Made by a program: the position numbers and the translations under genes
The notes under the pieces: generated by a model
Database searches by the model: none
The model's input: the letters and a program-made list of their open reading frames with translations, nothing else
What the model was told of the DNA's origin: nothing
In this document: one piece after another, positions 2,308 through 43,807 of the stretch
Position numbering within the stretch: position 1 is the stretch's first letter
Layout of the letters: each line of letters begins with the position of its first letter
Assembly: GCA_963575645.1 (NCBI GenBank)
Contig: OY754471.1
Span: forward strand, 48,114,820 to 48,178,819
Reading direction: 5' to 3'
From: Xanthostigma xanthostigma
Taxonomy: Eukaryota > Arthropoda > Insecta > Raphidioptera > Raphidiidae
Length of the DNA stretch: 64,000 nucleotides

Positions 2308-2580
2308 ATATGAAGAGAAAAATCGTATACACCACACGGGCCTTAAAAGTTGAAATCTCGGCCCTGCGCGTCATAATGCCCTCGGCTTCGCCTCGGGCTC
2401 ATGACGCGCGGGGCCAAAAAATAAACTTTCGGCCCTTGTGATGTAATATACTATTTTTATGGTCTGCATACAAATACATATCTTATCTTATTCCTTTTGG
2501 ATATAAGGATACGGGACAGCAATTTTTAAGCGTTATTCCAAAAAAATGTTTAAAAAAACAGAAAAAAATTAATCATATAC

Positions 2581-4035: not shown

Positions 4036-4433
4036 CCGCTAGTACATTGTAAATAAATGGCTCGGGTATATAAACTTCCCAAGTAAAAACTTGGCATCTT
4101 CGAGATTTCACTTCTTTTTTTTGACAAAGCCGGCAAACCAACTTGTTTGTTGTATCGAATTTGGCCTTTTTTCACATTTAAGTTGTTGGTAGGAATTTGG
4201 GAACCTGCTCTATATTAAAAACAATTATTTATTACTCTGCTCTAGTGCCGGATAGATCTCATAGGAAAAAGTGGACTGAATCGACTAAGCGTACCTCTAT
4301 CTATTCGTTTAGAAAATACGACCGCTGATTTTTTCGGTTTAGATGCTACGGTGGCGGTTTTAAATTTCTCAAAAAAAATATACAAAAACAATAAATATAC
4401 AAAAACAATATAGAAACAACTTGCGTAATGAAT

Positions 4434-4769
4434 TGTAGTGGATACATCAATAAGTAGGCTATAATTACGTATATCATTTGAAATGTAGAACTGCAAGATA
4501 TGTTGATTTAAAGCGGTTATAGTAATAATCGTTCTAGTTAATAACGCGACGTTTGCATTTTGAATGATATAAATATATGTGTATTTGGAAGGAAGGAAGA
4601 AGTCAGGTGGTGGACGCACGTGGCTATGCCAGCGCTAGCTGGCGTAGGTCAACGTTGGTAAAGTAAATAAAGCAATATTAAACCAAATTTAAAGAGTATT
4701 ACTAATTTAAAAGAACCTGATAACCACCAACACTACATGGCGATCCTGCCAGTTAACGGCAACACTACA
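4434..4769 (+). repeat. 5' LTR
   Basis: Begins tgtagtggatacatcaataa and ends caacactaca. It is almost identical to the 3' LTR over the first 300 bp. The last 32 bp (tggcgatcctgccagttaac...ctaca) are one unit of a tandem repeat that continues into the leader. Confidence 0.85.
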
Positions 4770-4900
4770 TGGCGATCCTGCCAGTTAACGCCAACACTAC
4801 ATGGCGACCTTGCCAGTTAACGCCAACACTACATGGCGACCCTGCCAGTCAATCAAACACTACATGGCTAACTTGCCAGTTCAAGCCAACAATAAATGGC
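4738..4900 (+). repeat. 32-bp tandem repeats spanning the LTR/leader junction
   Basis: Four to five units of the form 'tggcgaccctgccagttaac...caacactaca' run from the LTR end into the internal region and then decay. Because the unit carries both the LTR terminus (ctaca) and the candidate primer binding site (tggcga), the exact LTR edge was fixed only with the help of the GAAT duplication. Confidence 0.7.
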
Positions 4901-6851
4901 TATCTTGCCAGTTCAAGACAACAATACATGGCAACCGCAACAGTCGGCATCAACTTGGCAGTTAAAGGCAACAATAAAGGCAAACAATACAACACAGACA
5001 GCTCGATGAAAATCAACAACAACAACATTCTCAAGACGATAACAGCAACCAGTCGATGGACAGTCAACGATCTGAAGAAAGTCAATCATCTGAAGAAGAC
5101 AGATCATCAACTAACGGTCAACGGCGTGAAAGAAAAGACTCACAAAACGATTGTCAACGACATGAAAATAACAAACAAGACCTGCGCAACATTCAAGTAA
5201 ACGTCCACAGCAATACAATGTAAGAATTTTTTTAAAATAGAAAATAGTAAAATATGAAATAATTTTTTTGAAAGCGCAGCAAAATAATTTTATGTTGATA
5301 AAGAAATAATTTATGTACAATTCAAATTGATGTTACAGTAGAAAATTTTGCAGAATTGGTTGAAATTTTTTAATAACATATATTGAAATTAGATTCGTCA
5401 TGTCTGAGATTGGTTTTTATTTGCAACATTTTAAGATTATTGAAACTGTGTAAAGAATTTGCTACGTGGTCACTTAGAGCTGAAAAGATTTTTGTAATAA
5501 GAATTTTCTGTTGAATTATAAGAAATTTAAATATCGTTTGTTCATTGAAAATTGATATTAGTAAATTCCGTTTTTTTTTTAAATTTATTGAGTTATCTTT
5601 TTGAATATTAATAATTATTTAAGTTTATTAATGACTAATTTTGAGAAATGCGTTGAATTTTCTATAAAGGGACGGTCAGCATTATTAACATTGTTTTGTG
5701 AAGTATGATTTTTTTATGTGAATTTGTTAATTTATGATTTTGATGGATTTATAAGTGAATTTGAGAGGATAAGAAAGTTAACAAGTAGAATTTGACGAAA
5801 TCAGTAAAGAATATTATCAAAATCAATATATTTTAAAATAGAGTATTTGAAGTAAAGGAATTTTTTTTCACATGTTTGTTTTTGTATCAGGTTTTTGTTT
5901 AATCAAAAATGGTTAGCATTTATGTACCTAATTGAATTTTAAATGAAAATTTTAATCACGGGAAAACTTTTGTCTGTGAATATTTCTTTGGTGAATCACA
6001 CTATAATATCGTAAATGTCACTCATATGTGTTATTGTTCTTCATAAATAATATTATAATCAGTAATTGTTAATTGCATATATGAAGCTAAAATATTTGAT
6101 CTACTAATTTCACACGTAATAGGCAAATTGTAAAATGGCAACTCTGCACAATTCAGCAATAAAGAATACACGAGCGCAAACAGAAACCTTAACAAAAACA
6201 ACCATAGGCAGTTTAATGTTTATAACTAATAGATAAAATTACAGTCAGCGAAATTTTAATCAAAGATAGATGTAATAATTACAATTTTGGTCAGGGATGT
6301 TATAATTATATATTTAAAAAAAAAAAAAACTCCGGGTCGCAGTGCGAAACCCTGCCGACATATAGTGTATTTGCTTTTATAAGCAGTGTGGCTCTATTAT
6401 ATGAACTTAACTATGTTTTTGGACAGAATAAAAAAAATTACCCCTTAATACAACCCTTAAAACATTTTTTTACTTAATTTCAATACTACATATCAATTCA
6501 ACATCTGTACCAAATTATATACACTCTTCAGTATGTAAAATCCATATCAGAAACTTGTGTTTTCATAAAATTTGTAAGTCCGGTCCTGTCGGGCCGATTT
6601 TATTAAAATTTTAGCAGCACATTTTAATAATTACTAAAGGGTTAAATTTCAAATTTGAAACGGTTCCGAAAATTTTTTCGTTATTTTTGGGCCCGAAAAC
6701 TTTTTTCAACCCCTAAATACCACCCTTAACATGGCCCGATTGGGCCCATTTTAAATAGGCTTCGTGCGGTGATGGATTTCAACATGTGGTCCAAATTTCG
6801 TTAAAATCAATTAACTCCTTCGAAAGTTATAGCCCGCACACATATATATAT

Positions 6852-8199: not shown

Positions 8200-10071
8200 G
8201 AATTAAAACAAGCCGAGGAGTCGTACTATTTAAAACTATTTGAAAAATTTCACGGTAACAGTCGCGAACAATGGCGCATTATAAATGAAATCACCTGTGC
8301 CCAGAAATCAGCCAAGGGTATTGATTCCATTATTATTGATGATATTAGTATAAGTGATTCAGTTATTATCTCCCATCATTTTAGTAAACATTTTACCAAC
8401 GTAGTAGACGTTGTACGTGCAGACTTGAACTATAATCATAACAATTTTTTTGATCCAAAATTCGAACCAAATAATTATTCTAAATCATTTTTCTTACAGC
8501 CTACAACACCTGATGAAATTATAAGCTTAGTCAATTCATTCAAAACTGGTAAAGCTCCTGGTTCTGATGGGATCTCATCAAATATACTAAAAAATATTGT
8601 AGACATCTTAGCCCCAACAATTTGTGAGCTAATCAATTCTAGTTTTAGTTCTGGAGAGTTTCCACATATTTTAAAAAACGCAGTTGTCATTCCTCTTTAT
8701 AAAAAAGGTGATCGTTCAAATATATCTAACTACCGTCCGATTTCTCTTCTGCCCATCTTTTCAAAACTTTTAGAGTCCCTAATGAAGACAAGACTAGTAC
8801 TTTTCTTAAACAAATGCAACTTTTTTAGCTTAAAACAATTTGGATTTACAGCAAATAAAAGCACCGAAGAAGCCCTGCTTGAATTCACAAATAGACTATA
8901 TAATGGTATAAACGTAGGCAATAAAATAGCAGGACTGTTCATTGATATTTCCAAAGCGTTCGACACATTAGATCATAAATTGTTGTTAAATATGTTATAT
9001 AAAGCAGGAATCAGAGGTGTCAACTACAAATGGTTTAAAAGTTATCTTTTAAACAGGACCCAGCAAATTAAAATCTCTAACCAACTTAGTGCTGCATCCG
9101 TAATAAAATCTGGAGTTCCACAAGGGTCAGTCCTAGGCCCAGTTTTGTTTTTAGTATACATAAATGGCTTATGCAATATCGACTTCAACGGCTGCTTAAC
9201 AGCTTTTGCAGACGACATCGCACTATGCTATTCCGGTAAGACGCATGAAGAAATCATTAGTTGCATGCAAGCCGATTTAAATATCTTAAGGAATTGGTTT
9301 GCTTATCATCGACTCAAGCTTAGTGACAAATCCAAATACATTTTGTTTAATATTTATGGTAGTACAGCATGTAATATTGACCTGATTTATCACTCTGTCA
9401 GGTGTAACAACATAGACACCATAGCATGTAAAAATGACGAGTGTATTGTTCTAGAAAAAGTATCCAACTATAAGTATTTAGGTGTATATATCGATGCAAA
9501 ACTTAATTGGGAATGCCACATAACTAATTTGTCTAGATCTTTACGCTACGGCCTATGCAAAATGTATTTTTTGAGGTCTCGTTGTCCAGTCAATCTTCTC
9601 AAATCATTTTATTATGCACTCATCCAATCAAAATTGAATTATGGTATTGCATGCTGGGGCGGTGCTTATCTCAACTTTTTCAATCGTGTATCCATTATCT
9701 AAAAGAAAATTATAAGAACATTACTATTCAAGAATAACCGTGAACATTCATTTCCATTATTTCAATCCTTATCGCTGTTGCCCGTTAGACATTTATATAT
9801 TTATAAGGTTCTAAAAATATTTTATATTAGAAGTGGTAATACACGTCTTACTGTGGAACATCCTTATAGACTCAGGCACACAAAAATGGGTGTACCTAGA
9901 CCTTATAAATCATTATTTAGAAGATATTTTTTATTTACTGCTCCCTTTTTGTTTAATATATTACCTGTCCATATTCAAAATTGTCACAATAAAAATATTT
10001 TTAGTTCATTACTCAAAACTTGGCTCTTGAACCAAGCAAATGTTGAAAATTTATTTTGTATTTGCCAGTAA
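8200..10071 (+). pseudogene. LINE reverse transcriptase (ORF2 C-terminal part), one nonsense codon
   Basis: The frame is open from position 8200 to a TAA at 9700-9702 and then continues in the same frame to 10071. RT blocks are visible in order: GKAPGSDGIS, YRPISLLPIFSKLLE, LFIDISKAFDTLDH, SGVPQGSVLGPVLF and the catalytic FADDIA, followed by the YLGVYID and LNYGIACWG thumb/connection motifs. The downstream part has the usual LINE C-terminal pattern 'PLFQSLSLLPVRHLYIYKV'. The upstream endonuclease is missing because of truncation and the LTR insertion at the 5' edge. The single in-frame stop and the insertion make it non-functional. Family placement (CR1/Jockey group) rests on motif style and the ATT-type tail. 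Confidence 0.85.
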
Positions 10072-20773: not shown

Positions 20774-20844
20774 TCTAAATCAGGGGTGTCAGACTGATTT
20801 TTCTAAAGGGCCATTTCTAAGGGTTCCGCGACTTTTCACCCCCC

Positions 20845-21115
20845 GACAAAATATCCCCCGACAAAATATCTCCGCGACAAAATACCCCCGACAAAATATC
20901 TCCGCGACAAAATATCTCCGCGACAAAATATCCCCCGACAAAATATCTCCGCGACAAAATATCTCCGCGACAAAATATCTCCGCGACAAAATATCCCCCG
21001 ACAAAATATCTCCGCGACAAAATATCTCCGCGACAAAATATCCCCCGACAAAATATCTCCGCGACAAAATATCTCCCCGACAAAATATCCCCCTACAAAA
21101 TATCTCTAGACAAAA
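20845..21115. repeat. 17-bp minisatellite, left array
   Basis: About 15 units of 'gacaaaatatctccgc' or 'gacaaaatatcccccc', the two variants interspersed. Confidence 0.9.
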
Positions 21116-21189
21116 AAACCACAACTATTGAAAGCCTCCCGTCTCTTATCTAATTCGCATACCCCGTTATCGTTCACCCCGGAATTGTT

Positions 21190-22040
21190 TTTTTTTTAAA
21201 CTCAACATTTGCCCCTTCCCGTTTCACTGCGAGACAATTCGCATACCCCTTTATCGTTCACCCGGAATTGTTTTTTTTTTTTAAACTCATCATTTGCCCC
21301 TTCCCGTTTCACTGCGAGACAATTCGCATACCTACCCCTTTATCGTTCACCCCGGAATTACAATTCGCATACCCGTTTATCGTTCACCCCGGAATTGTTT
21401 TTTTAAAAACTCCACATTTGCCCCTTCCCGTTTCACTGCGAGACAATTCGCATACCCCTTTATCAAAAAAAGCGATGGTTTTCAATCTTCATGAAAATGT
21501 GAGTTTTAAGTTGGTCTCAAAGTAAAAAAAAATTAAAAGTAAAAACAAAACTCATTCCGGTACCGGGAATAGTTTAGGAAAAGATTTCAATCTAATTCGC
21601 ATACCCCGTTATCGTTCACCCCGGAATTGTTTTTTTTTTTAAACTCAACATTTGCCCCTTCCCGTTTCACTGCGAGACAATTCGCATACCCCTTTATCGT
21701 TCACCCGGAATTGTTTTTTTTTTTTTAAACTCATCATTTGCCCCTTCCCGTTTCACTGCGAGACAATTCGCATACCCCTTTATCGTTCACCCCGGAATTA
21801 CAATTCGCATACCCGTTTATCGTTCACCCCGAAATTGTTTTTTTAAAAACTCCACATTTGCCCCTTCCCGTTTCACTGCGAGACAATTCGCATACCCCTT
21901 TATCAAAAAAAGCGATGGTTTTCAATCTTCATGAAAATGTGAGTTTTAAGTTGGTCTCAAAGTGAAAAAAAAAAAATAAAAAGTAAAAACAAAACTCATT
22001 CCGGTACCGGGAATAGTTTAGGAAAAGATTTCAATAATTA
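21190..22040. repeat. Direct duplication inside the foldback element
   Basis: Two copies carry the words 'cccgttatcgttcacccc', 'tttgccccttcccgtttcac' and 'tgcgagacaattcgcatacc', both ending with 'ctcattccggtaccgggaat'. The same words are themselves reiterated two to three times per copy. A related array lies at 53325-53640. Confidence 0.8.
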
Positions 22041-25705: not shown

Positions 25706-25753
25706 TTATCCTGCTGCCTCTCGCCGAGAAACGGTAATTCCTGTACCGGCCAT
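25706..25753 (+). mobile_element. SINE fragment, left half of the Polinton target
   Basis: The words 'cctctcgccgagaaacggta' and 'attcctgtaccggccat' belong to the SINE body. The SINE resumes with 'ggccatcttgttgaggcc' at 43802, directly after the Polinton. The head is truncated. Confidence 0.9.
25748..25753. repeat. Polinton target-site duplication, left (GGCCAT)
   Basis: Six bases immediately outside the left terminus, identical to 43802-43807. Intact SINEs elsewhere (56660 in reverse) read through 'ggccatcttgttgagg' with a single GGCCAT, which confirms the empty site. Confidence 0.95.
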
Positions 25754-26306
25754 AGTAGTGTATATGCTCAGTACTGCCGCCACATTGAACTTTGACCTCC
25801 ACTCTGACGTCACTGCGACGTTTCAGTCAGCTCCAATCAGAGCCTTTGTTTTGTGAGCCAATCAGAGAGCATAACGCCCCCTTTTGTGAACCAATCAGAG
25901 AGCATGAAACAGTCATTATTCTCCAATCAGAGCCTTTGTTTTGTGAGCCAATCAGAGAGCATAACGCCCCCTTTTGTGAACCAATCAGAGAGCATGAAAC
26001 AGTCATTATTCTCCAATCAGAGCCTTTGTTTTGTGAGCCAATCAGAGAGCATAACGCCCCCTTTTGAGAACCAATCAGAGAGCATGAAACAGTCATTATT
26101 CTCCAATCAGAGCCTTTCCTTTTGTGAGCCAATCAGAGAGCATAACGCCTCCTTTTGTGAACCAATCAGAGAGCATGAAACAGACATCAAAACCTACCTT
26201 TTGTAAGCCAATGAGAGAGTACCTTTTGTGAACCAATGAGTTGATAGTTATAGCGTTAATCGACTATATTTTGTTGTCGACGGTTGTTACATATGACCAT
26301 CTGAAA

Positions 26307-26575: not shown

Positions 26576-26581
26576 TTTATT
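26576..26581 (-). terminator. Polyadenylation signal AATAAA after the last gene
   Basis: Minus-strand AATAAA about 42 nt beyond the stop codon of the PPP1R15-like gene. It is in the right place to end the leftward transcript. Confidence 0.6.
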
Positions 26582-26622: not shown

Positions 26623-27147
26623 CTAATTTACTGTATCCATGCTGAACGTTTCATTATCTACACGATCATAATTGTCATCATCGTCATCATTACCAAAATC
26701 ACAATCGGCGGAATCGTCTGAATCTTCGAGTAAATTTTCCGAAGTGTCAAAAATAATTTTAATTTTTAAATCATCAACCGTTAATATTTCTTTTTGCGGC
26801 TGTAAATCCGTACAATCGATATAGTTTGAAAGTAATATTTCGTTTGTGTATTTATTTCTTATAATTACTGTAATACCGGCCTCGTGCATTTCCATGTTGT
26901 TTTGATTATTATGCACTAAGCTTAGTATGTTCTCGACGGATGATGACGATGAATTGACAGTTCTTAGCACCGGACTGAGAATATGAGAGACTGCTTCTAT
27001 TCGTCTTTTAAACCGTTCACGATCCCTAGCAATCTGTTCCCACATTCCCACCCTTGCTTTTCGATATGCAAAACTCCAACAAACCATATATTTAATCTCT
27101 ACTTTATCGTTAAAACGTACAACTTTTTTTTTATTATTTTTATCCAT
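26623..27147 (-). CDS. PPP1R15/GADD34-like PP1-docking protein
   Basis: The 174-aa protein, starting at the ATG at 27147, has an N-terminal core that matches the conserved C-terminal core of PPP1R15 (GADD34/CReP). There is a PP1 docking RVxF-type motif K8-V-V-R-F12, then W24, then AR.G followed by MWEQIARDRERFKRRI (residues 35-50). In PPP1R15 proteins this segment binds protein phosphatase 1 and eIF2alpha/actin and restores translation after eIF2alpha phosphorylation. Several animal DNA viruses carry analogues. The Ser-rich linker (about 65-72) and an Asp/Glu-rich tail (about 137-168) are not part of the family core. The start overlaps the stop of the upstream 76-aa gene by 8 nt (27140-27147). 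The gene is last in the leftward cluster, a typical accessory position. The homology call is from motif recognition; activity is inferred. Confidence 0.82.
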   Translation of the reverse strand: MDKNNKKKVVRFNDKVEIKYMVCWSFAYRKARVGMWEQIARDRERFKRRIEAVSHILSPVLRTVNSSSSSVENILSLVHNNQNNMEMHEAGITVIIRNKYTNEILLSNYIDCTDLQPQKEILTVDDLKIKIIFDTSENLLEDSDDSADCDFGNDDDDDNYDRVDNETFSMDTVN

Positions 27148-27370
27148 TACAGCTATTAAAGTCAGATATAATTTTTTCACTACAAACTATGGAGATTTCA
27201 TAAAAGAGTCTTTCGTAATTAAAAATATCTTTAAGTATAAAAAAATCATTGGAACTTAAGCGTAGACAATTCAACAACTTACACTTATCTAAATACATTT
27301 TATAATAAATATTTATGCTGTTTGAGTTGTAAACGTACAAGCATAATAAACTGTTTACAAGGTCTTTCAT
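27140..27370 (-). CDS. Hypothetical 76-aa accessory protein
   Basis: Start chosen at the first ATG after the upstream gene's stop (27381). The longer frame back to 27433 has only a GTG at its head. The product begins MKDLVNSLLCLYVY and is rich in Leu, Tyr, Asn and Ile with five cysteines. There is no recognised domain. Its last 8 nt overlap the start of the PPP1R15-like gene, so the two may be expressed together. Confidence 0.5.
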   Translation of the reverse strand: MKDLVNSLLCLYVYNSNSINIYYKMYLDKCKLLNCLRLSSNDFFILKDIFNYERLFYEISIVCSEKIISDFNSCNG

Positions 27371-27380
27371 TTCAATATAT

Positions 27381-27938
27381 CTAAATCCCCTCCACTCGAA
27401 GGCCCGAGCTTCTGGTGAGATCCGTCTCGACACAACAGACCGTTTCGTTATTAATCGTTAAGTTTCGCTGCAGTTTATGTGTGAGATTATTAATATCTTG
27501 ACGAAAGTTTATATCAACGTTTAAAAGTTTCAACCGCTTCAAATAACTATGCAATTTTTCGTATAGTTGATCGAACGTCCTTTTATCGTTAACTCGCAGA
27601 TTGATCATTTTTACATAACGTGTATTTCTGATAAACACTTCGAAAACTACACGTCCGTCGTCTAGAACGAATCGCGCGAAACGTGGATCTGTCTTTAAAA
27701 ATCTTATACCCTCCTTCCAAGGAACGGGTGTTTTTTGCACAGCGTTATTTTCGTCGAAGCAAAATCCCCATTCTTCTAATTTTTGTTTATTGTCTGCAGA
27801 GAGATTGATAAAACGTCGTCTGTGATTGAACAGTTCTACGCTGAGAATTTCCTCTAAAGTGATCGCAGATGGTCTCTCAGGCACGAAACCAACACACCAT
27901 TCTTCATCATCACTCATAACGGTGCTGAATACACTCAT
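27381..27938 (-). CDS. Hypothetical accessory protein, about 185 aa
   Basis: No family was recognised. The start is uncertain: ATGs exist at 28004 (MWWGKQHK) and about 27938 (MSVFSTVMSDDEEW). I chose the second because a 40-codon frame fills the space before it. Visible features are EEWCVGFVPERPSAITLEEI near the N-terminus, an aromatic/basic middle (PWKEGIRFLKTDPRFARFV) and a helical Lys/Leu-rich segment (YEKLHSYLKRLKLLNV). There are no membrane segments. It lies just downstream of the capsid gene and upstream of the small accessory genes. Confidence 0.6.
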   Translation of the reverse strand: MSVFSTVMSDDEEWCVGFVPERPSAITLEEILSVELFNHRRRFINLSADNKQKLEEWGFCFDENNAVQKTPVPWKEGIRFLKTDPRFARFVLDDGRVVFEVFIRNTRYVKMINLRVNDKRTFDQLYEKLHSYLKRLKLLNVDINFRQDINNLTHKLQRNLTINNETVCCVETDLTRSSGLRVEGI

Positions 27939-27970
27939 TTTTTCCCAAAGACTGAATTGATTAAAAACAG

Positions 27971-28093
27971 TTATGTAGTATTTATGTTGTTTTCCCCACC
28001 ACATAAATTGCAAAATATCACTTCCTTCACGAAATATTTGTGTCCGTTGCCCACGACGAATTGATCGTCACAAATTCCAATTCTATGACTCAT
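27971..28093 (-). CDS. Possible 40-aa protein directly after the capsid gene
   Basis: The ATG at 28093 abuts the capsid stop codon (28094-28096) with no spacer, the same tight tiling as elsewhere in this cluster. The product starts MSHRIGICDDQFVVG and contains a CNLCGG motif (residues about 28-33). Its three cysteines could form part of a metal site. It is short enough to be chance; the position is the main support. Confidence 0.3.
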   Translation of the reverse strand: MSHRIGICDDQFVVGNGHKYFVKEVIFCNLCGGENNINTT

Positions 28094-29323
28094 TTACACT
28101 ATTTTCGTAACCGTATTTTGCAGAGGATGATAGGTAAATAGCTTATCGTGCAAAATCAAACAGTAAGCCGTAGTGTCTGGATGGAAATTTTCATGAGATT
28201 CAATCATCAATTTGATATCCACAACGCCTTTCTTGATGGCTTCCGGTTGTCGCGAGCAATCGAATACAATTAGCGGTGATATGGTTTTGAATTCATTTTT
28301 ATTGAAAAGAGGCGCGTTTTTGTTTCCGTAAAAGTAGGCTTCTTGACCTTTCAGATATTTCTCGTAGATGACATTAAAGTCATTTTTATCAAAATTCATA
28401 GTGAGCGGTTCGTAGGGATACGATTCGGAATTTAAAAAGAGCTTGGCCGAGCGCAGTTTACAGTGATCGAAAACGCTACTGTCCTTCAGTTGAGTGCCGT
28501 AGCGTTTCGTTTGAAAGCCAACAATTATCATACGCGGCGTTTCGACTTGATTGGCGCTCGTCACAGTCCATGCATGCTTTGTTGTTGTCGGCAGCGTAGG
28601 ATATTCATACAGATCCCACGATCTAAACACAATGTTTTTATTCTTATTTGCCGTCTTCAAAAGTTTAATTTTCATATCGTTAGACGGTATGATATAAGGC
28701 ACGTTCCATTTGATGGATGTTAATTCTATTTTAGCCGATTTTTGAAGTTGTCCTGCGGGCGCCGCTGTTGTAAAAATTGCTGAATTATCATCCCTCTTAC
28801 GTATCAATATCAATTCTTGTTTACCGTTCATCATCGCTCTCTTATGATCGTGCGCGAAACCCAGAATGTATTTCAAAGGTAAGCTAACGCTAAAATTTCC
28901 CTCTGAATCCAACAAGTTGGCGTTGTTTGAACTTAAATCCCAACCGCAATTTGACAATGCCCTCACATCGTCCGGACTATGCAGCACATAACCGATCATT
29001 GTGGAGGTAATGCCCACATTTTTAGTCGAATCGATTTGCACGCCCCACAATTCATAGCGAATTTCCTCAAACAGATGCGCAATTCCGTTGTTGATAATTT
29101 TCGAAGTTTCTGCCGTTCCGCCGTCCTCGCCAACCAATTTTCCGCGCACTTCGAGCACGCTGTCGTGAGGAAAAGTTATGGTGTCCTGATTTTGAATGGC
29201 TATGCGAATTTCATCGTTGGTCTTCAACTGATTGGTGTTGAACGGTTCCTGCGAGTGTACGCGAATCGAGTCTATGCTTTCGTCTAGAACGATCGGAAAA
29301 TCAACAGTCAAAATGTCTTGCAT
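28094..29323 (-). CDS. Major capsid protein (double jelly-roll hexon-like)
   Basis: The 409-aa product has the pattern of Polinton/adintovirus major capsid proteins: an N-terminal strand region (VDFPIVLDESIDSIRVHSQE), then EEIRYELWGVQIDSTKNVG (residues about 87-105), a first beta-rich half ending in SVSLPLKYILGFAHDHKRA, and a second half with ELTSIKWNVPYIIPSN and PLIVFDCSRQPEAIKKGVVD. Trimers of such proteins form the pseudo-hexagonal capsomers of adenovirus-like particles. The length fits the compact insect Polinton type. The start is an ATG 6 nt after the stop of the small basic gene. The frame is intact. Confidence 0.85.
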   Translation of the reverse strand: MQDILTVDFPIVLDESIDSIRVHSQEPFNTNQLKTNDEIRIAIQNQDTITFPHDSVLEVRGKLVGEDGGTAETSKIINNGIAHLFEEIRYELWGVQIDSTKNVGITSTMIGYVLHSPDDVRALSNCGWDLSSNNANLLDSEGNFSVSLPLKYILGFAHDHKRAMMNGKQELILIRKRDDNSAIFTTAAPAGQLQKSAKIELTSIKWNVPYIIPSNDMKIKLLKTANKNKNIVFRSWDLYEYPTLPTTTKHAWTVTSANQVETPRMIIVGFQTKRYGTQLKDSSVFDHCKLRSAKLFLNSESYPYEPLTMNFDKNDFNVIYEKYLKGQEAYFYGNKNAPLFNKNEFKTISPLIVFDCSRQPEAIKKGVVDIKLMIESHENFHPDTTAYCLILHDKLFTYHPLQNTVTKIV

Positions 29324-29567: not shown

Positions 29568-30284
29568 TTACAAGCGTTTAAGATGTAAACGCACGGTAAC
29601 GGGTTCGCCGTTGAAATCCACCGATCGATCGTCTTGATCAACAATAGTAATTGTAACGTTGTCTATCACGTTGCGATTGATTGGCAAATAAATAACGTTT
29701 CTCGGCGTTAAAGAGATTTTATAGCCCGGCTCCTCTTGCGGATAGAACTGAAACAAAGTGTGCTCGGGCTGTCCGTTTAAATAGGATCCGCTGACGATGT
29801 TACATTTCACTCTGACGGCGTTTATTTTTGAAATGTGTGCCGTAAAATCTGATTTGTGTGCACTGTTTGCCTCCAACACTTTTCGCGTCTTGCTGAAACC
29901 CAGCAGAGATCCCACGCTACCTTCAACTCCGATGTCTATAATCACATCGCTCTTTATTTCCGTTTTCAACGTGTTGTTATTTGCTTTGATTCTAATGTTT
30001 CTGTTCACTTTTTTCAATTCTTCGACAAGGAATTCGTTAATATCATGGATATCATACGTTCCTTTTGGTATCTCGATCGTTTTCCTATTCTCATCGATAT
30101 CTGGAAGGTCTGGATCACGGTAGACAAATTTATTGTTGGTCTCATCGATATTTGGAATCGAGTGCCACGACTCAAACTCAATCAGTCCCAATTGATATTC
30201 TTCGTTTTCGTCGAGCACGATCGATGGATAAAAGGAACTACTCATCACCGACTCAATTCCGCTCAGGGTAAACGTGAATGACAT
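29568..30284 (-). CDS. Minor capsid protein (penton-like, single jelly-roll)
   Basis: The 238-aa product matches the penton type encoded next to the capsid gene in virus-like Polintons: MSFTFTLSGIESVMSSSFYP at the start, a YQLGLIEFESWHSIPNID segment, then IEIPKGTYDIHDINEFLVEE (about residues 90-110), and a C-terminal beta-rich region with RNVIDNVTITIVDQDDR. Pentons occupy the five-fold vertices. The ATG is 3 nt after the protease stop, and the next gene begins at its own stop codon. Confidence 0.8.
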   Translation of the reverse strand: MSFTFTLSGIESVMSSSFYPSIVLDENEEYQLGLIEFESWHSIPNIDETNNKFVYRDPDLPDIDENRKTIEIPKGTYDIHDINEFLVEELKKVNRNIRIKANNNTLKTEIKSDVIIDIGVEGSVGSLLGFSKTRKVLEANSAHKSDFTAHISKINAVRVKCNIVSGSYLNGQPEHTLFQFYPQEEPGYKISLTPRNVIYLPINRNVIDNVTITIVDQDDRSVDFNGEPVTVRLHLKRL

Positions 30285-30287
30285 TTT

Positions 30288-30710
30288 CTAAGTTTCCAAT
30301 AGGAAAAACAAGCAGTGATGTCCGCACAAAACTGAGTTGAATTTCTGTCTTCTCTCGTAGTTATATACTATTTTGCAACCTTTCAAATAATCGACGAGCT
30401 CTCTCGGTGGTCGCAAGTTACCGAAACTGTCAAAGTACTTAACATTTTTGCCGACTTTTTTGTACGCAACCCAGTGTGTTCCGGGACCGTCTCTATCATC
30501 CAAATTTACTACGGCGCTCTCGTTCTTTTTCGACTTTTTAGGCAGCGCGTTTCTCATGTACACACCTCTGAACAACTTAACGTTTAACATTTTTGCATAG
30601 CGTTCGATCTCCGCATCGGTGAGCGCGTGTTTCGGCAATATTTTTAAAAGTTTTTTGAAGTCGTCGTGGGTCGGTAAGGTCTTAAAAAAAGCCCATAACC
30701 TCTTCTATAC
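30288..30710 (-). CDS. Adenovirus-type cysteine protease (maturation protease)
   Basis: Counting from the codon at 30638 (116 aa), the catalytic triad is His55 in GTHWVAY, Asp70 in YFDSFG and Cys105 in VLCGHHC, with a conserved Gln98 just upstream. This is the arrangement of adenain/Ulp1-type proteases that process virion proteins. The start is unclear: conserved-looking sequence (ALTDAEIERY) precedes the first ATG (residue 17), and no ATG exists in frame back to a TAG at 30705-30707. The first 70 bases of this frame overlap the end of the PLA2-like gene, which contains a T7 run (30684-30690 on plus). Initiation at TTG (30638), frameshifting from the upstream gene, or loss of a start codon are all possible. 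Confidence 0.8.
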
Positions 30711-31519
30711 GGCTTCAAATACAAGCCGCTTCCTTTTTTACCGATGGCTATGGCTTCCATTGTTTCATTGTGACGATTCGCTTCGGCAAGTTTATCCCTG
30801 GCCCCCTTTGCATCTATAACGGTTCTGGCAACGTTCGCAGCTCCGCCGGCCAGAGCTCCCAACGCCGACAGGCCTGCAAACAGCGGGATTAGCGGTAAAA
30901 ACCCCCCCGTTTTGGGTACGGGTATCACTCGAGATTCACCGCCGTTTTTTTTTATTGCAGCAGCATATTTGTTCACACCCGTCGAGCTTATAGCGTCGAG
31001 TTCCCGCTGTGCCTGCTTAATAAGACTGTTCTTGACGTTGGAATTTCTAGTTTTCACACTCCTTCTACCTTGTCTCAGCGTCGACTTTGCTCGTCTGCTT
31101 GAGCGTTTGCGTTTTGGTGTAACGTCTGCGGATGATGAAGAAGTTCTCTTTCTTTTCATACCCATGCCGAGTTTAGTTTTAATTTTCATAGCTGTCGCCG
31201 TAAGCAACGCGGCTGTCTTTTCACCCAAACTAGCGTCTTTGGCCTTCACACGGTCCCAAGCTCTTTCGAGAAGTTTGCGATCGGCTATGTGACGTTCTTT
31301 TAAATTCTTTGTGTTTGCGTAGGCTATGTCGTGCTCTTTACAACCTTCGTCCAATCTATTCACACCTACGTCACCTCTGTCCAAACGCTTCTCCAACTTT
31401 GTTCCGGGTCCGCAGAAACGATAGCCGGGTATATGTAGTTCGAGCGGTAATTTGTTGATTAACGTGTTGACAAGTCCACGTCCGCTAACGAAATCCCCTA
31501 ATGAATGGATGAAGACCAT
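30644..31519 (-). CDS. Virion protein with PLA2-like domain and PX-type C-terminus
   Basis: This 291-aa product has a phospholipase A2-like N-terminal domain of the kind found in parvovirus VP1 and adintoviruses: Ca-loop-like YRFCGPGT (33-40), then GCKEHDIAY with the His63-Asp64 pair. It continues with a very basic segment (about 120-165; KRKRTSSS, PKRKRSSRR), a hydrophobic Ala/Gly-rich segment (about 210-228; LIPLFAGLSALGALAGGA) and C-terminal GxGLYLKPY and GYGLFLRPY repeats. In related viruses such proteins are packaged and help membrane penetration or core binding. The ATG is 3 nt from the integrase stop. The function is inferred from the motifs. Confidence 0.8.
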   Translation of the reverse strand: MVFIHSLGDFVSGRGLVNTLINKLPLELHIPGYRFCGPGTKLEKRLDRGDVGVNRLDEGCKEHDIAYANTKNLKERHIADRKLLERAWDRVKAKDASLGEKTAALLTATAMKIKTKLGMGMKRKRTSSSSADVTPKRKRSSRRAKSTLRQGRRSVKTRNSNVKNSLIKQAQRELDAISSTGVNKYAAAIKKNGGESRVIPVPKTGGFLPLIPLFAGLSALGALAGGAANVARTVIDAKGARDKLAEANRHNETMEAIAIGKKGSGLYLKPYRRGYGLFLRPYRPTTTSKNF

Positions 31520-31522
31520 CTT

Positions 31523-32497
31523 TTATACCACGTCTTTCTTGAGTATCCACGAGTTGTGACTATCGTCAAAACCTAGCCACTTAATAAACAATTTATCACC
31601 TTTTGTTTTCAAGACTTTTTCCACCAAATAGACGTTATTGTTCTTGTCGGGCACTTTTTGAAGTTCCTCCTCGTAAAAGCCGCCCTTGATCGGTGTTTTG
31701 TTTGCGTCGATCAGCTCGTAAGTGCGCGGATTGGTGGTCAGTTTTACTTTAAATACCGTAAAAATTTCAGTCGTCCAATTGGGAAGGTAGCCTTTGTCGA
31801 ACAAATGTTTATATTTACTGATGCGCACGCGATCGCCAACGTGTATTTTTTGTTTTCTAGCGTCCACTATTTTTAAATTGGAGTAAACGGTCTTTAATAA
31901 TTTTTTTTCATTTTTTGCATTCACCTCTCTCGGTTTCATTTTTATAGTACTGTGTTTGGTGTTGTTGTATTCGGCTACAATGTCCGGCAACGCCTTAAAC
32001 CATTTGTAATTTCCTTCGATGCCAAAGTGTTTCCACAATCGCGTCTTCAGCGTTCTTATGAAGCGCTCGACTATGCTGCTCTTTAAATTGCTAAAAGATG
32101 AATAGTGATTTATGGAATATTTTTTCATTAAATTTTGAAAATTTGAATTGTAAAATTCCGTTCCGTTGTCCGTTTGCAGATTACGAGGCGGCTTTTTAAG
32201 TGTTTCTAAAATTTTCAACATGGCGTCCGCAACCTCCTTTCCACGTTTGCTTTTCAACGGCTGCGTCCACGCATACTTGGAAAAGGCATCGATTACAGTG
32301 AGAATATATCTGTAGTTGTTGTTCACGCCGGCGTACGGAATCATTTCGGCCAAATCGGCTTGATAGAGGTCGTAGAGACCCTTGACGATCACGCGTCTGC
32401 GTCGATAGTTCTTTCTCGCCGGCTTGTGCAGCTCGTTGACAATTCTGATTTTTTCTGCAGAGGCTTTTTGCGGCGACTTGTTATTTGTACGTTTCAT
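31523..32497 (-). CDS. Retroviral-type integrase with chromodomain
   Basis: The 324-aa product shows the rve catalytic triad D48 (YQADLAEM), D110 (LQTDNGTEF) and E144 (SSIVERFIRTLK), with 34-residue D-E spacing. After an SH3-like segment (IHVGDRVRISKYKHLFDKGY) it ends in a chromodomain (about 283-324; KVLKTKGDKLFIKWLGFDDS). Polinton integrases act on the terminal repeats and give 6-bp duplications, as seen at this element's ends. The chromodomain may guide insertion through histone marks. The start is an ATG 3 nt after the upstream stop. A zinc-binding N-terminal domain is not evident. Confidence 0.93.
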   Translation of the reverse strand: MKRTNNKSPQKASAEKIRIVNELHKPARKNYRRRRVIVKGLYDLYQADLAEMIPYAGVNNNYRYILTVIDAFSKYAWTQPLKSKRGKEVADAMLKILETLKKPPRNLQTDNGTEFYNSNFQNLMKKYSINHYSSFSNLKSSIVERFIRTLKTRLWKHFGIEGNYKWFKALPDIVAEYNNTKHSTIKMKPREVNAKNEKKLLKTVYSNLKIVDARKQKIHVGDRVRISKYKHLFDKGYLPNWTTEIFTVFKVKLTTNPRTYELIDANKTPIKGGFYEEELQKVPDKNNNVYLVEKVLKTKGDKLFIKWLGFDDSHNSWILKKDVV

Positions 32498-34926: not shown

Positions 34927-35628
34927 TTATACTTCCCGTTTCACGGCTATGAATTTATCAAAATTCATCCTATATCTGCCTGAGTTTATGTCAGAGTCTT
35001 TGTCGATCACGAAAAAATTATACTTGTTCTCCGCCCAGCATTTGGCGCACAAATTTTTAAACTCTTGAAACGACATGTCCGTATTGACATAGTCGTCGTA
35101 GACATGACGCAAATTCATGTCATCCTGTTTGAAGAGTATAATAAAATTCGCATTGTCTCTGACGAGCTGCTTAGGTATTCTACTGTACGATTGACACAGG
35201 TAAAAACTGTCTACGTCAGCATGTCGTCCCATACTGAAATATTCGCGAATGTTACTTTGACTTTCACACGCTACGTCGTCGAAAATAAAAATTGAATTCG
35301 GCTTTGCCTCGTTCGGATGCATTATTGTTTCGCTGGCGGTGAAGGTGTTATAGCCCAACCCGTTGCCTACGCCCTTTAAAATCTCTGCAAGCATTCGATA
35401 CTTTTCCTGTTGAAGTGATTTTGAGTAGACGTAGACGTTTTCAAATTTGAGCGCGTTTTCGTCAATTAACAGCGAAATCATTACATTAGTCTTACCACAA
35501 TTCGACGGTCCTACAATAATGCACCTTACTGTGCCGGGAAGTAATTGTCCATGTTTTTTAATTATTGATTCATTATTTTGATCTAGATTTAAAATTTTAA
35601 TCTTTACAGGTTGTTGTATCAATTTCAT
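34927..35628 (-). CDS. Genome-packaging ATPase (FtsK/HerA superfamily)
   Basis: The 233-aa protein has Walker A GPSNCGKT (40-47), Walker B IFIFDD (113-118) and an arginine/sensor-like region CQSYSRIPKQLVRDN. These are the hallmarks of the A32-like packaging ATPases of Polintons, adintoviruses and large DNA viruses, which pump the genome into the capsid. The length is typical. It is the first gene of the structural cluster, about 70 nt downstream of a TATA-like element. The start is the only in-frame ATG near the 5' end. Confidence 0.93.
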   Translation of the reverse strand: MKLIQQPVKIKILNLDQNNESIIKKHGQLLPGTVRCIIVGPSNCGKTNVMISLLIDENALKFENVYVYSKSLQQEKYRMLAEILKGVGNGLGYNTFTASETIMHPNEAKPNSIFIFDDVACESQSNIREYFSMGRHADVDSFYLCQSYSRIPKQLVRDNANFIILFKQDDMNLRHVYDDYVNTDMSFQEFKNLCAKCWAENKYNFFVIDKDSDINSGRYRMNFDKFIAVKREV

Positions 35629-36468: not shown

Positions 36469-39400
36469 TCACTCTTTGATTTTACAGTGACCCCACGCTA
36501 GAGTTTTGTGAGAGTCTGCCAATAAACACCTCTTATCGTCCGCTGCACTGAGACAGATTTTATTAGTTTTTTGTACAAAAACGTCATGCTTCACCGATCT
36601 AAACACGCACATTTCACACATTAAAGTCTCACCGGTCTGCAAGCAGTGCAAATAGTCGTCGAACTTCAATTGATTGTTAACAACGTTCTTTTTGACACCT
36701 TTTGCTCTCTTGTGACAATGACTAGCGCTGCCAAACAGTCTGAAACAGTACATTTTCGAGCGCAGGCCTACAAATTCAGCGATCAGGTTAGAACCCGTTT
36801 CAAATTTGAATTTGCCGAGAACTTTTTTGTTGACCAGCGGAAGACCGTACTCGTTGTCGACGGGAAAATTGGATGTGTCGAACAAGTGTAGGTCAGCCTT
36901 TATGTCCTCATAAATGTCGTCTGTCATCACCTCGAGAAAAAAGCTGTCCGTGTCGGTGTAAACCAAATTGACGACATTGTACTTTTTCTTTAAATAATTA
37001 TAGAAAAAATCGTACATTAAGCATTTGGACAGGTCGAGAACTGCTGCGCCGATGTAGTTTGGCTTGTTATATTCTACGGTGAGTCGTTTCATCTGCACGG
37101 CTGCCAGCTCGCTGTCAAAAATTGCTATTGAATGAAAATTTGGCTGACTGATGTAGTGTTCGGCGCCGCGCTTTTTTCCTTGACGCTCCCAACGGCTCAC
37201 CAAACGCACGTCTACGCGCTTTTCTACGCTTTCAATAGATTTTCCATAACACGCGTTGTTCTTCATCTTGTACATATCCTTTTCGAATTCAGACTCGGCT
37301 AGAGCACGCAGCTCCGTATTCCTATCAATATACTTTTTCAAAAAGCACGATTGGGCAAATTTCAACACTCTGTGAATTTTTTTCACCTTGAGGCCATGTT
37401 CCAAACACTGTTTGAGGTATCTATAGTGAAGTATGTAGCGGTCTTTGTCATGTAGCGTACTTATCAATTTTGTCTGTTTTGATTTAGTGGTCGGGGGAAT
37501 TTTTTTTTCCGCGCAAAATGGGAAGTCGTTGTGTCTGTCGTGCAAATGAGTCGGGTATTCCAAGTCAACCTCTAAGAAATAACCGCTCTCGCCGTTTTCG
37601 TCGTTTAAAATTTGTTTCAAATCAAAATTTTCAATTTCGTCCTCGCTCAGCCAGCTAAACCCACCTGTCGGCAGAGGCTGAGACATTGCCCAACCGTACT
37701 GATTGTTTGCGTCTAAGTATACGAGAAACGAGGACGGTTCATCGGGGTTGTATTCGTTTCTCATATATTTGTTGTTGGCGACGCAATGACGTTTCGCGCA
37801 ATAAGAAATACCACCACGCAACGATTTCCGAATAAAGTGTACCATATCAATATCAGACATCAGTTCAAGTTCCACCTGAGTATATTTCAACATCGCATCC
37901 CACGACATTCCCGGCAGCGTATAATAGCACGCGGGATCGAGTTGGTATGTTGCGAGTTCTAGTTTGCGAAATTTTTCAAAGATATCACAGAGGAGAATCA
38001 CATCCGTTTTCAAATAGTTATTCGAGTAGTCGAGCAATGTTTCACACTCGAAAACCGTCCATACTTTTTTTGCACGTTCGTATTCCTCCTCTGTGATATT
38101 TTCGTCATTTAATTGAGAATAAAACGATTCAATGGGCGGTAGTTCCTTTTCGTTTAAGACATCGAGCGAAGTGACATACTCGTATGGAAAAATGCCTTTG
38201 TCTGTGACCAGTTGAAATTGTTCCATGTCCGGATATTGATTTCTGAGCTCGATAAAGTCTTCTTCCTGCATCGTTTTTGCCAATTTGCTCAAACTACATG
38301 AAAGAAAACGAAACGAGTCCAGAAATCTGATTTCAACACACTTTTTACTTTTAAAATGATTATTTTCATCCTCATCATCATCATCATCGCATTCAGACAA
38401 AGGAAATTTCGCACTAAACGATATGTACTTCTCTTTATTTACAGGTATAACCGAAATATTATCACAAACCGATGCCAACTGTTTTATGAATAGATGACTA
38501 TCGAAATTGCTCAAGTTATGAAAAAATACCGGAAGAAATTTTGGAATTTTATAATTTAAATTACAAATGCTATGCGCATATCCGCGAGGTTCGCCCGTCA
38601 AATGATCGTGATCCAAAACAATCGAATTACTCTCTTCGACGGTGAAACTCTTCTCGCAGATATGGCATTTGTCTTTGCGCAACCGTTCGATATCTTCGCT
38701 TTTGAGTTTACGTAAAGGAACTACCCGGTTTACAATTTCATAAATTTGCTTCGCATCACTCACAAGACTTTGAATGAACTGTATTGTGCAGTCGCTGCCG
38801 TTAAAAATTCTCAGTTTGGAGAGCGATGCGTCATAGCTACACTTTATATAGTAGGAAAAACTGTGCGGTACGTGTTGATTCAACGACACTGTAAACGAAC
38901 TGGTAGAGTCAGGCATTGCCGTATGTATGGGTTTCAGTATAGTTTCCGAGTCGGCGTAAATTACAAAAGGCAACAGCTCTTTTCGTTCATAATTTTTAAA
39001 TGATATAATGTTGCCGGGACTTTCGCGCCCTAAACGGTCTTTTTTTAAATCTGCGGTAGGCAACTTTACCCTCACCTTTCCGCAATCGTATTCACAATGT
39101 CGTTGAAGCAAATTTTCACTGCTGAAATACGACAAACAACAATCACACAGGAATTTTTTATATTGATTGTTCGTCAATTGGCTTGAGACCAATCGTGATA
39201 AATTCTTAATCCAGACATAGTGATTGTTGCTTGACGCGTCGTCGCTTAAATATAACAAGTTTACGTGATTGATTTTTTTCTCTCGTGTACAGTAGAGAGG
39301 ACCCACGATGTTACAACGGTCATCGAGTCCGAAAACGTTCACGCTGCAAAAATCGTTCAATTTTTCAAACTGTGCAATGTTTTTTATTTTCATTGGAAAC

Positions 39401-40386
39401 TCTAAACCGTTTAAATTTAAAACTTCGCTGTAATGCGGATAGGATGTGATGCGGTCACTGTCCTTGCTAACTGGAAATAGTGCGCTGACGATGGCCCAAA
39501 CAAAGCAAAATTGATCATTATTTTTAACATTTATGCAGACTCCCTTGTTTTTGATTTTTTTCGGTAAATCTATATAGGAAGAAGCGTGCAGCGGATTATA
39601 CTTCATGACGTTGAGTTCGAAACAGTCGATTTTTTGCAGAGCCCAGCCCGAATCGCGCTCCTGAAATTCCTCTGCTTTTTTAATAATTTTGTTTTTAAAA
39701 TCGGTCAAGTGAGCGTCAATATCTGTGCCGGCGTTAAAGATTACGTTTTTCGTATTGAACGATTTTAGTTCGCGTGCGATCTTACCATTTTTCAGTAAAA
39801 AGTAAAAAGCAAAAAGTTCAAAATTTACTTTAACCGTTATATGTTTTTCGAGGTTAAATTTTATCAAGTCAACGAATGCGGTTCTGTTGCTCTCGAAAAA
39901 CTCATCAATATTCAAACAACTGTAATTTGTGTTATTGATTTTATAAGTTACTATACGGTGTTTAAAAGCAAACTTCGAAACTTCTATATTATCGCGATGA
40001 TGCACGTAAATATTCGCTTTATGACTAGTGCTCTTTTGATGAGCGCCAAACGAACCGGCCGACACTTCAACACCACAAACTTCGCACAAGATTGTACCAC
40101 TGCATTTTTGTCTTTTTGTCGACGATGACGTCGACGGTTCATTATCAGTTTGCAGTTGTCGCTTCATTGTGTTCGTAACGACTGAAATGTCGGTTGGTTT
40201 TTCAGGCTTTTTTATATTGTGAGAGCGAGCCAAATGCGCAACTAACTCGTCCGTTTGCAAGACTTGTAGCCCGCACATAATACATTCGTGTAATCCATCT
40301 TTGAAAATATCAGCGTGAACGTTTTCATGTCTTTTTCTACTGTCACGTCTAGTAAATGACTTATCACATACAGCACATTTAAACAT
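36469..40386 (-). CDS. polB: Protein-primed family B DNA polymerase
   Basis: The 1305-aa product has N-terminal C2H2 fingers (C4-C7-H20-H24; a second at about 33-56; a third at about 96-122) and another Cys/His cluster near 420-440. The exonuclease motifs are IYADSE (about 477), FFHNLSNFDSHLF (about 629) and YLKTDVILLCDIF (about 795). The polymerase motifs are VYLDANNQYGWAMSQPLP (about 890), MKNNACYGKS (about 1048) and VYTDTDS (about 1145). Between Exo I and Exo II lies a CxxC...DHDHLTGEPRGYAHSICN segment (about 571-612) like the recombination endonuclease VII/HNH fold. The protein-primed type implies a terminal protein on the AG...CT ends. Length and domain order fit Polinton PolB. It is transcribed separately from the structural cluster and has no frame breaks. 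Confidence 0.95.
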   Translation of the reverse strand: MFKCAVCDKSFTRRDSRKRHENVHADIFKDGLHECIMCGLQVLQTDELVAHLARSHNIKKPEKPTDISVVTNTMKRQLQTDNEPSTSSSTKRQKCSGTILCEVCGVEVSAGSFGAHQKSTSHKANIYVHHRDNIEVSKFAFKHRIVTYKINNTNYSCLNIDEFFESNRTAFVDLIKFNLEKHITVKVNFELFAFYFLLKNGKIARELKSFNTKNVIFNAGTDIDAHLTDFKNKIIKKAEEFQERDSGWALQKIDCFELNVMKYNPLHASSYIDLPKKIKNKGVCINVKNNDQFCFVWAIVSALFPVSKDSDRITSYPHYSEVLNLNGLEFPMKIKNIAQFEKLNDFCSVNVFGLDDRCNIVGPLYCTREKKINHVNLLYLSDDASSNNHYVWIKNLSRLVSSQLTNNQYKKFLCDCCLSYFSSENLLQRHCEYDCGKVRVKLPTADLKKDRLGRESPGNIISFKNYERKELLPFVIYADSETILKPIHTAMPDSTSSFTVSLNQHVPHSFSYYIKCSYDASLSKLRIFNGSDCTIQFIQSLVSDAKQIYEIVNRVVPLRKLKSEDIERLRKDKCHICEKSFTVEESNSIVLDHDHLTGEPRGYAHSICNLNYKIPKFLPVFFHNLSNFDSHLFIKQLASVCDNISVIPVNKEKYISFSAKFPLSECDDDDDEDENNHFKSKKCVEIRFLDSFRFLSCSLSKLAKTMQEEDFIELRNQYPDMEQFQLVTDKGIFPYEYVTSLDVLNEKELPPIESFYSQLNDENITEEEYERAKKVWTVFECETLLDYSNNYLKTDVILLCDIFEKFRKLELATYQLDPACYYTLPGMSWDAMLKYTQVELELMSDIDMVHFIRKSLRGGISYCAKRHCVANNKYMRNEYNPDEPSSFLVYLDANNQYGWAMSQPLPTGGFSWLSEDEIENFDLKQILNDENGESGYFLEVDLEYPTHLHDRHNDFPFCAEKKIPPTTKSKQTKLISTLHDKDRYILHYRYLKQCLEHGLKVKKIHRVLKFAQSCFLKKYIDRNTELRALAESEFEKDMYKMKNNACYGKSIESVEKRVDVRLVSRWERQGKKRGAEHYISQPNFHSIAIFDSELAAVQMKRLTVEYNKPNYIGAAVLDLSKCLMYDFFYNYLKKKYNVVNLVYTDTDSFFLEVMTDDIYEDIKADLHLFDTSNFPVDNEYGLPLVNKKVLGKFKFETGSNLIAEFVGLRSKMYCFRLFGSASHCHKRAKGVKKNVVNNQLKFDDYLHCLQTGETLMCEMCVFRSVKHDVFVQKTNKICLSAADDKRCLLADSHKTLAWGHCKIKE

Positions 40387-43199: not shown

Positions 43200-43733
43200 T
43201 TGGTTCACGGAAAGGGGGCGCCATGCTCTCTGATTGGTTCACAAAAGGTACTCTCTCATTGGCACACAAAAGGAAAGGCTCTGATTGGAGAATGATGATT
43301 GTTTCATGCTCTCTGATTGGTTCACAAAAGGTACTCTCTCATTGGCACACAAAACAAAGGCTCTGATTGGAGAATAATGACTGTTTCATGCTCTCTGATT
43401 GGTTCACAAAAGGGGGCGTTATGCTCTCTGATTGGCTCACAAAACAAAGGCACTGATTGGAGAATAATGACTGTTTCATGCTCTCTGATTGGTTCACAAA
43501 AGGTACTCTCTCATTGGCACACAAAACAAAGGCACTGATTGGAGAATAATGACTGTTTCATGCTCTCTGATTGGTTCACAAAAGGGGGCGTTATGCTCTC
43601 TGATTGGCTCACAAAACAAAGGCTCTGATTGGAGAATAATGACTGTTTCATGCTCTCTGATTGGTTCACAAAAGGGGGCGTTATGCTCTCTGATTGGCTC
43701 ACAAAACAAAGGCTCTGATTGGAGCTGACTGAA
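43200..43733. repeat. 90-bp CCAAT-box array, right
   Basis: Minus-oriented units of the left array, read here as 'gctctctgattggttcacaa', 'gctctctgattggctcacaa' and 'ctctgattggagaataatga'. Extra variant units with 'ggtactctctcattggcaca' make this array longer than the left one. Confidence 0.85.
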
Positions 43734-43801
43734 ACGTCGCAGTGACGTCAGAGTGGAGGTCAAAGTTCAATGTGGCGGCAGTACTGAGCATATACACTAC
43801 T

Positions 43802-43807
43802 GGCCAT
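43802..43807. repeat. Polinton target-site duplication, right (GGCCAT)
   Basis: Identical to 25748-25753 and contiguous with SINE sequence to the right. Confidence 0.95.

Follow-up and report, generated by a model that had tools for sequence, protein, structure and literature searches.

The Polinton and its last gene

The window, by which we mean the whole 64,000-nucleotide stretch of Xanthostigma xanthostigma DNA analysed here, contains an 18,048-bp insertion that is a Polinton, and the last gene of this element is PPP1R15-like. The Polinton context reported in the first-pass annotation holds, with inverted repeats, a 6-bp target-site duplication, and capsid, integrase, protease, ATPase and polymerase motifs. 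By position in the window, the features of the element are as follows.

25748..25753, no strand: left target-site duplication GGCCAT, 6 bp; same hexamer at 43802-43807
25754..26213, plus: left terminal inverted repeat with an approximately 90-bp repeat array, from an inverted-repeat search
26576..26581, minus: AATAAA polyadenylation signal, about 40 bp past the stop codon of the PPP1R15-like gene, read from the sequence
26623..27147, minus: PPP1R15-like gene of 174 aa plus stop, from the ATG at 27145-27147 to the stop codon at 26623-26625
27140..27433, minus: accessory ORF o97, overlaps the start of the PPP1R15-like gene; no family match
27381..28013, minus: accessory ORF o210, weakly FF-domain-like; match to TCERG1 chain 4fqg, E 0.0042
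28094..29323, minus: double jelly-roll major capsid protein; PF21738, E 7e-94
29568-30284: candidate minor (penton) capsid ORF, from position only; no Pfam, NCBIfam or PDB match
30288..30638, minus: adenain-like maturation protease; PF00770, E 9.7e-4, 19.3 bits, just missing the cut-off of 21.3
30644..31519, minus: phospholipase A2-like protein; PF08398, E 9e-12
31523..32497, minus: integrase (rve; PF00665, E 7.5e-13) with a weak chromodomain (PF00385, 0.0061, below cut-off)
34927..35628, minus: packaging ATPase; PHROG terminase match, E 2.6e-5; Walker A-like GPSNCGKT
36469..40386, minus: type B DNA polymerase, 1305 aa, presumed from motifs YADSET, DANNQY, KMKNNACYG and YTDTDS
43251..43801, minus: right terminal inverted repeat, from an inverted-repeat search
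43802..43807, no strand: right target-site duplication GGCCAT, same hexamer as left

The inverted-repeat arms at 25754-26049 and 43506-43801 are 99% complementary. We take the protein at 36469..40386 to be a type B DNA polymerase from its motifs; Pfam returned no polymerase family for it, the best matches being Endonuclease_7 and zinc fingers. A search of NCBIfam gave one weak, unrelated match. The chain matched by o210 presumably consists of FF domains, and the o210 of a second lineage (L043 4810-5385) matches the same chain at E 0.0093, with no FF hit for o210 in Pfam. Judging from these matches, a second host-like domain may adjoin the PPP1R15-like gene. Elsewhere in the window, tandem and direct repeats with a 15-16-bp unit and longer lie to the left of the element (20789-21124 and 21177-21989), and a 425-aa ORF at 8425-9702 (plus strand) is one that we take to resemble a non-LTR retrotransposon reverse transcriptase.

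The ORF with the PPP1R15-like core at 26623-27147 is confirmed as real. Its coordinates had been given correctly in the first-pass annotation, and it is an ATG-to-stop frame of 174 codons on the minus strand, which that annotation did not state. Among 1000 first-order Markov samples of the region, none contained an ATG ORF of at least 174 codons, and the longest sampled had 158. Codon usage, compared with six other genes of the element, lends modest support (z 2.3, with 31 of 2000 Markov samples equally high), the core segment alone lying at about background; this measure is weak here because it gives values near zero for o97 and for most of o210 although both ORFs are conserved. Coding is better shown by conservation between copies, described below, than by codon usage.

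The PPP1R15-like core and its contact residues

The encoded protein can be divided into the following parts.

27112..27126, minus: RVxF-type PP1 docking motif KVVRF, residues 8-12, a pattern match
26962..27126, minus: PPP1R15-like core, residues 8-62; 25/54 identical to human PPP1R15A; dN/dS 0.153 between two Polinton lineages
26998..27054, minus: eIF2alpha-binding motif RVGMWEQIARDRERFKRRI, residues 32-50; exact fit to the published motif as quoted in PMC5346070
26887..26961, minus: unconstrained linker, residues 63-87; dN/dS 0.90 between lineages
26740..26886, minus: new C-terminal domain with four predicted strands, residues 88-136; dN/dS 0.233
26626..26739, minus: acidic tail, residues 137-174; 16 D/E and 1 K/R of 38

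The motifs on which the gene was originally singled out are all present: KVVRF at residues 8-12, a Trp at residue 24 and MWEQIARDRERFKRRI at residues 35-50. A PPP1R15-type core, as proposed there, is borne out by a phmmer search of PDB sequences, in which residues 9-62 match PPP1R15A (7nzm) at E 4.9e-9 in a gapless alignment with 25 identities in 54 positions to the human protein; a shuffle control and the exact eIF2alpha-binding motif agree. Further matches are to PPP1R15A (4xpn, 1.8e-6), African swine fever virus (ASFV) DP71L (9nb9, 1.5e-4) and PPP1R15B (4v0u, 0.21). Searching in the other direction, with the human core as query against the 1170 stop-to-stop frames of at least 30 aa in the window, returned the frame of the PPP1R15-like gene as its sole match at E up to 10. 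When the protein was shuffled 5000 times, the highest score was 8.0 bits, compared with 42.3 bits for the real sequence, and a DNA motif of the core has one match in the window, none in 100 shuffles and no exact match in the prokaryote genome collection searched.

The first-pass annotation had proposed the Pfam PPP1R15 profile as a check on this assignment, and here the expected match was not obtained: PF10488 scored 16.1 bits (E 0.0092), under the curated cut-off of 26.1, and none of the three Polinton proteins tested reached that value (16.1, 16.7 and 13.8 bits). We therefore class the gene as PPP1R15-like and not as a formal PPP1R15 member. With Pfam sub-threshold, the case for PPP1R15 is supported by the pairwise matches, by the contact residues and by selection.

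To follow the contact residues between copies, we used 38 intact coding sequences, 26 of them distinct, from loci L001-L041, which were picked mostly for open frames and whose rate of intactness is not unbiased. An RVxF pattern stands at the core start in 26/26 distinct intact copies, with the variants KVCF in group 2 and KNVCF in L041 (the groups are described below); the alignment column of V10 reads C in 11 rows through a gap shift, the spacing pattern being intact in all 26. Four residues given as lying on PP1 in PPP1R15B, namely V641, F643, R658 and W662 (PMC4394352, section 6), correspond to V10, F12, R32 and W36, and both the Arg site R32 and the Trp W36 are kept in every distinct intact copy. 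The phi-phi contact region, K19-Y20-M21, is partly hydrophobic, and its spacing varies among PPP1R15 members.

The eIF2alpha-binding motif is that of Rojas 2015, as quoted in PMC5346070, and 26/26 distinct intact copies fit it. In human PPP1R15A, the contacts described in PMC8500838 are R587, D588, R591 and R594 for eIF2alpha and F592, R595 and R612 for actin. The Polinton residues R41, D42, R45, F46, R48 and R49 are the equivalents of human R587, D588, R591, F592, R594 and R595 and are invariant in 26/26 distinct intact copies. The actin contact Arg612 is lost, being Ser66 in all 26; it is a secondary actin contact outside the published motif, so we do not treat it as defining. The leucines of the DP71L LSAVL motif, stated in PMC5346070 to be needed for function, are retained as L57 and L61, again in all 26.

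Mammalian and fly PPP1R15 proteins and some viral ones carry an upstream eIF2-recruiting helix, according to PMC7615683 and PMC10998612. There is no room for such a helix here because just seven residues precede K8, and a pattern test for the eIF2gamma-binding helix F-x3-W found it in none of the 26 distinct intact copies. A core of about 70 residues of the mammalian PPP1R15s is described in section 6 of PMC4394352 as sufficient to suppress the stress response in cells.

Copies, lineages and selection

We searched the host genome (623 Mb in 28 contigs; match counts are lower bounds) and found at least 122 matches to the gene protein at E up to 1e-3 and at least 57 matches to the capsid protein. 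Of the capsid matches, 46 are full-length, with identities of 99-100% for 28 and 90-91% for 18, and downstream of each of the 46, in two lineages, the gene or what remains of it follows on the same strand within 10 kb. Capsid and gene lie 907-986 bases apart in the first set; in the second the distance is 2117-6073 (median 2130). The linked gene copies comprise 37 that are uninterrupted, eight with at least one stop and one that is partial (C5:22865721, residues 3-64 only). Six broken loci account for the remaining 11 capsid rows. Two of these loci have a gene match nearby (C8:31388879 and C8:31427552, one of them belonging to a third lineage); for the other four none is listed. For this linkage count, 76 of the 122 gene rows were used after exclusion of secondary partial rows, and 30 of these 76 records do not adjoin a full-length capsid match. 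When first-group loci were inspected with their flanks, 24 of 28 held the capsid gene, whole or in part, beside the PPP1R15-like gene, and four showed o97 and the gene with no capsid match. Accessory ORF o97 stays with the gene at L008, L058, L067 and L068, where the fetched stretch shows no capsid match.

Gene order in the second lineage (L043) is integrase, phospholipase A2, protease, o238, o104, capsid, o210, o97 and PPP1R15-like gene. The third lineage, seen at one locus (L041/L072), has the order capsid, o210, o97 and gene, with the capsid gene broken and identities of about 78-79% for the capsid, 59% for o210, 67% for o97 and 61% for the gene. Thus o97 adjoins the gene in three lineages. 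A diverged, broken second gene copy lies about 6 kb from several group-1 copies (for example L044 7445-7797), with no capsid match listed there.

Selection was estimated from dN/dS by the Nei-Gojobori count, using our own script, between 15 distinct sequences of group 1 and 10 of group 2. The ratio is 0.153 in the core (dS 0.605), 0.902 in the linker and 0.233 in the C-terminal domain; a ratio of 0.153 for the tail is untrustworthy, dS being saturated at 2.98. Departure from neutrality between the groups, calculated from rounded mean counts with an assumed neutral nonsynonymous share of 0.73-0.74 and with average pair counts treated as one comparison, gave p 0.002 for the core, p 0.017 for the C-terminal domain and none for the linker (0.69), and core and linker differ from each other by Fisher's test (p 0.013). 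Between group 1 and L041, the single third-lineage copy, dN/dS is 0.254 in the core, 0.645 in the linker and 0.251 in the C-terminal domain. Between group 2 and L041 the core is less constrained, at 0.43, a value with few changes behind it, and the C-terminal domain stands at 0.13; within group 2 the C-terminal domain reaches 0.74, a value drawn from fewer than one change per pair. For comparison, one pair of copies gave 0.062 for the capsid, 0.161 for o97 and 0.239 for o210. Between the main lineages, then, the core and the C-terminal domain are under purifying selection and the linker is not.

Within group 1, synonymous divergence climbs from 0.022 in the core to 0.157 in the tail, and some copies whose capsid protein is 100% identical differ by about 6% from the window in the PPP1R15-like gene, with most of the differences in the tail. 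This pattern of divergence suggests that the 3' part of the gene may have been locally exchanged between Polinton lineages.

A protein search returned a sole relative, P0001, which is 105 aa long, comes from a 1812-base ENA contig and matches the C-terminal half only; it is 80% identical across 49 aa (residues 87-135), is itself acid-tailed, and is modelled with four strands at a pLDDT of about 71-84 within its first 50 residues. No convincing solved or structural relative of the C-terminal domain was found, the best PDB sequence match having E 0.22, and a protein search with the N-terminal region found no relatives. The acidic tail also occurs in L029 and L041, that is, in other lineages. It had been singled out at the outset as new, which stands in that the searches found no relative of the acidic-tailed part except Polinton copies and P0001; what was missed is the separately conserved domain that is also present, at about residues 88-136. 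The whole-protein structure model is poor (mean pLDDT 44). A second RVxF-like motif, KIIF at residue 130, lies within a predicted strand, and we put it down to chance. Some copies, for example L045 1058-1837 (G000:C5:6041057-6041860), suggest a tandem doubling of residues ~64-174.

Proposed function and comparison with known systems

On this sequence evidence, we consider it very probable that the gene encodes a Polinton-borne PPP1R15-type PP1 adaptor through which eIF2alpha would be dephosphorylated with the help of G-actin, keeping translation on for the element. PP1 binding, eIF2alpha dephosphorylation and a role in counter-defence are what we infer from the PPP1R15 family. The N-terminal core would dock host PP1 via KVVRF, R32 and W36, and the helix R32-I50, braced by G-actin, would present the phosphorylated eIF2alpha domain to PP1. 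Removal of the eIF2alpha phosphate would then maintain translation during replication of the element and production of its capsid. The C-terminal beta domain and the acidic tail would be a Polinton-specific addition, the domain probably serving localisation or the binding of an extra substrate or partner.

That last feature opens an alternative, in which the protein is a PP1 adaptor for another substrate, its C-terminal beta domain redirecting PP1 to a viral or nuclear protein and eIF2alpha being secondary. A constrained domain (dN/dS 0.233) without a solved relative fits such a role, as does the missing N-terminal eIF2-recruiting helix, but the eIF2alpha contacts R41, D42, R45 and R48 are invariant in 26/26 distinct intact copies and would be needless for mere PP1 docking, and we regard this alternative as unlikely. 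It is considerably harder to see the gene as a passenger or a host-domesticated sequence, useless to the element and kept through the adjoining terminal repeat. In its favour are the 30 of 76 compared records that are not beside a full-length capsid match, together with the four of 28 inspected loci that resemble deletion derivatives in having o97 and the gene and no capsid match; against it, the gene holds the same position in three capsid lineages with 46/46 linkage, and its core and C-terminal domain are constrained where the linker is not, so that we give the idea very little credence. Finally, chance or convergent resemblance of a short RVxF and a basic helix, with no kinship to PPP1R15, might be entertained for a conserved stretch of just ~54 residues and a sub-threshold Pfam score, but is scarcely credible in view of E 4.9e-9 in the PDB, 42.3 bits compared with at most 8.0 in 5000 shuffles, the exact 19-residue motif, and a segment, AYRKAR, common to the core and the host PPP1R15 exon.

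An eIF2alpha-directed PP1 adaptor would matter beyond this locus. Polintons are widespread in animal genomes, and evidence for their viral behaviour in animals is mostly indirect. Polinton particles have not been observed, according to PMC8097293. The gene occurs in three capsid lineages, is under selection between them and accompanies each full-length capsid match found in one genome, which together argues that these elements meet translation shutdown in productive cycles. We raise only tentatively the broader possibility that a whole arthropod Polinton clade depends on an eIF2alpha phosphatase subunit of its own, with a new C-terminal beta domain and its acidic tail taking the place of the eIF2-recruiting helix. 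If so, Polintons would be, or would recently have been, true viruses under attack by eIF2alpha kinases, and dozens of intact germline copies could dampen the host's own stress response. A simple assay follows, in which the gene is expressed in arthropod cells and a stress reporter and phospho-eIF2alpha are read, and the C-terminal domain offers a new domain for the study of eIF2alpha phosphatase targeting.

The host's own PPP1R15 is represented by a last exon at about C11:3102542 (L042 4543-), on another contig, which follows a TTGCAG acceptor and ends in TGA; it is the only own-PPP1R15 match recognised among the at least 122 genome matches to the gene protein, passes PF10488 at 36.8 bits and matches PPP1R15B and A in the PDB. 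The Polinton core is 44% identical to this exon (25/57) and 46% identical to human PPP1R15A (25/54), and identity thus does not decide the donor. We lean towards an arthropod-type source because of the shared AYRKAR and because phmmer with the host exon as query gave 43.1 versus 32.2 bits, the higher score being that against the host exon; the sequence distance to the exon disfavours a recent capture from this host.

Several searches bear on how widely such genes occur. Among the papers listed in a literature search of incomplete coverage, none described a PPP1R15-like gene in insect Polintons or Mavericks, or joined PPP1R15 with Polinton or adintovirus with eIF2alpha; the passages searched in PMC11071296 and PMC6431247 likewise contain no Polinton PPP1R15, and those in the review PMC10743859 name no insect-virus PPP1R15 member. 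In the prokaryote genome collection no relatives were found, and the viral contig collection returned none by gene, capsid, capsid alignment, polymerase, gene alignment or two DNA motif patterns, the motif zeros saying little on occurrence elsewhere because known viral PPP1R15 genes were likewise not returned (there was no positive control). The element itself resembles the insect Polintons/Mavericks (adintovirus-like): among the best 120 of 1283 matches listed, its capsid is 42-47% identical to proteins of Microplitis, Diachasma, Cotesia and other wasps, a sawfly and ants, and the closest relative is P0002, at 82%.

Compared with the animal PPP1R15 proteins (GADD34/PPP1R15A, CReP/PPP1R15B and the single invertebrate PPP1R15), the Polinton protein is alike in its RVxF, Arg site, Trp and eIF2alpha/actin-contact helix, and the LSPxL of human PPP1R15A is also found in it. 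It differs in that its core is N-terminal whereas theirs is C-terminal, in the absence of the upstream eIF2-recruiting helix and of Arg612, in its extra beta domain and acidic tail, and in being encoded by a Polinton. The gene type is otherwise known from herpesviruses, asfarviruses and insect granuloviruses. The short form of ASFV DP71L is likewise a small viral protein, with a core match at E 1.5e-4 and the LSAVL leucines in common, but it belongs to another type of virus and its core fills most of a 71-aa chain, whereas about 110 further residues follow the core in the Polinton protein. A PPP1R15 core is also present in coGV-gp036, which we take from its name to be a granulovirus protein; this is an insect DNA virus of a different kind, and we liken the two by description and not by sequence. 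That protein is named 'insect virus PPP1R15' in PMC4394352, so viral analogues, which the first-pass annotation placed in herpes-, asfar- and poxviruses, are not limited to these. HSV-1 ICP34.5, a herpesvirus protein also compared by description and not by sequence, has a C-terminal core, the shared domain that steers PP1 to eIF2alpha according to PMC5346070. Set beside these systems, the core and an insect-virus PPP1R15 are known, and the features that appear from the sequence to be new are carriage by a Polinton, the N-terminal position of the core and the extra conserved domain.
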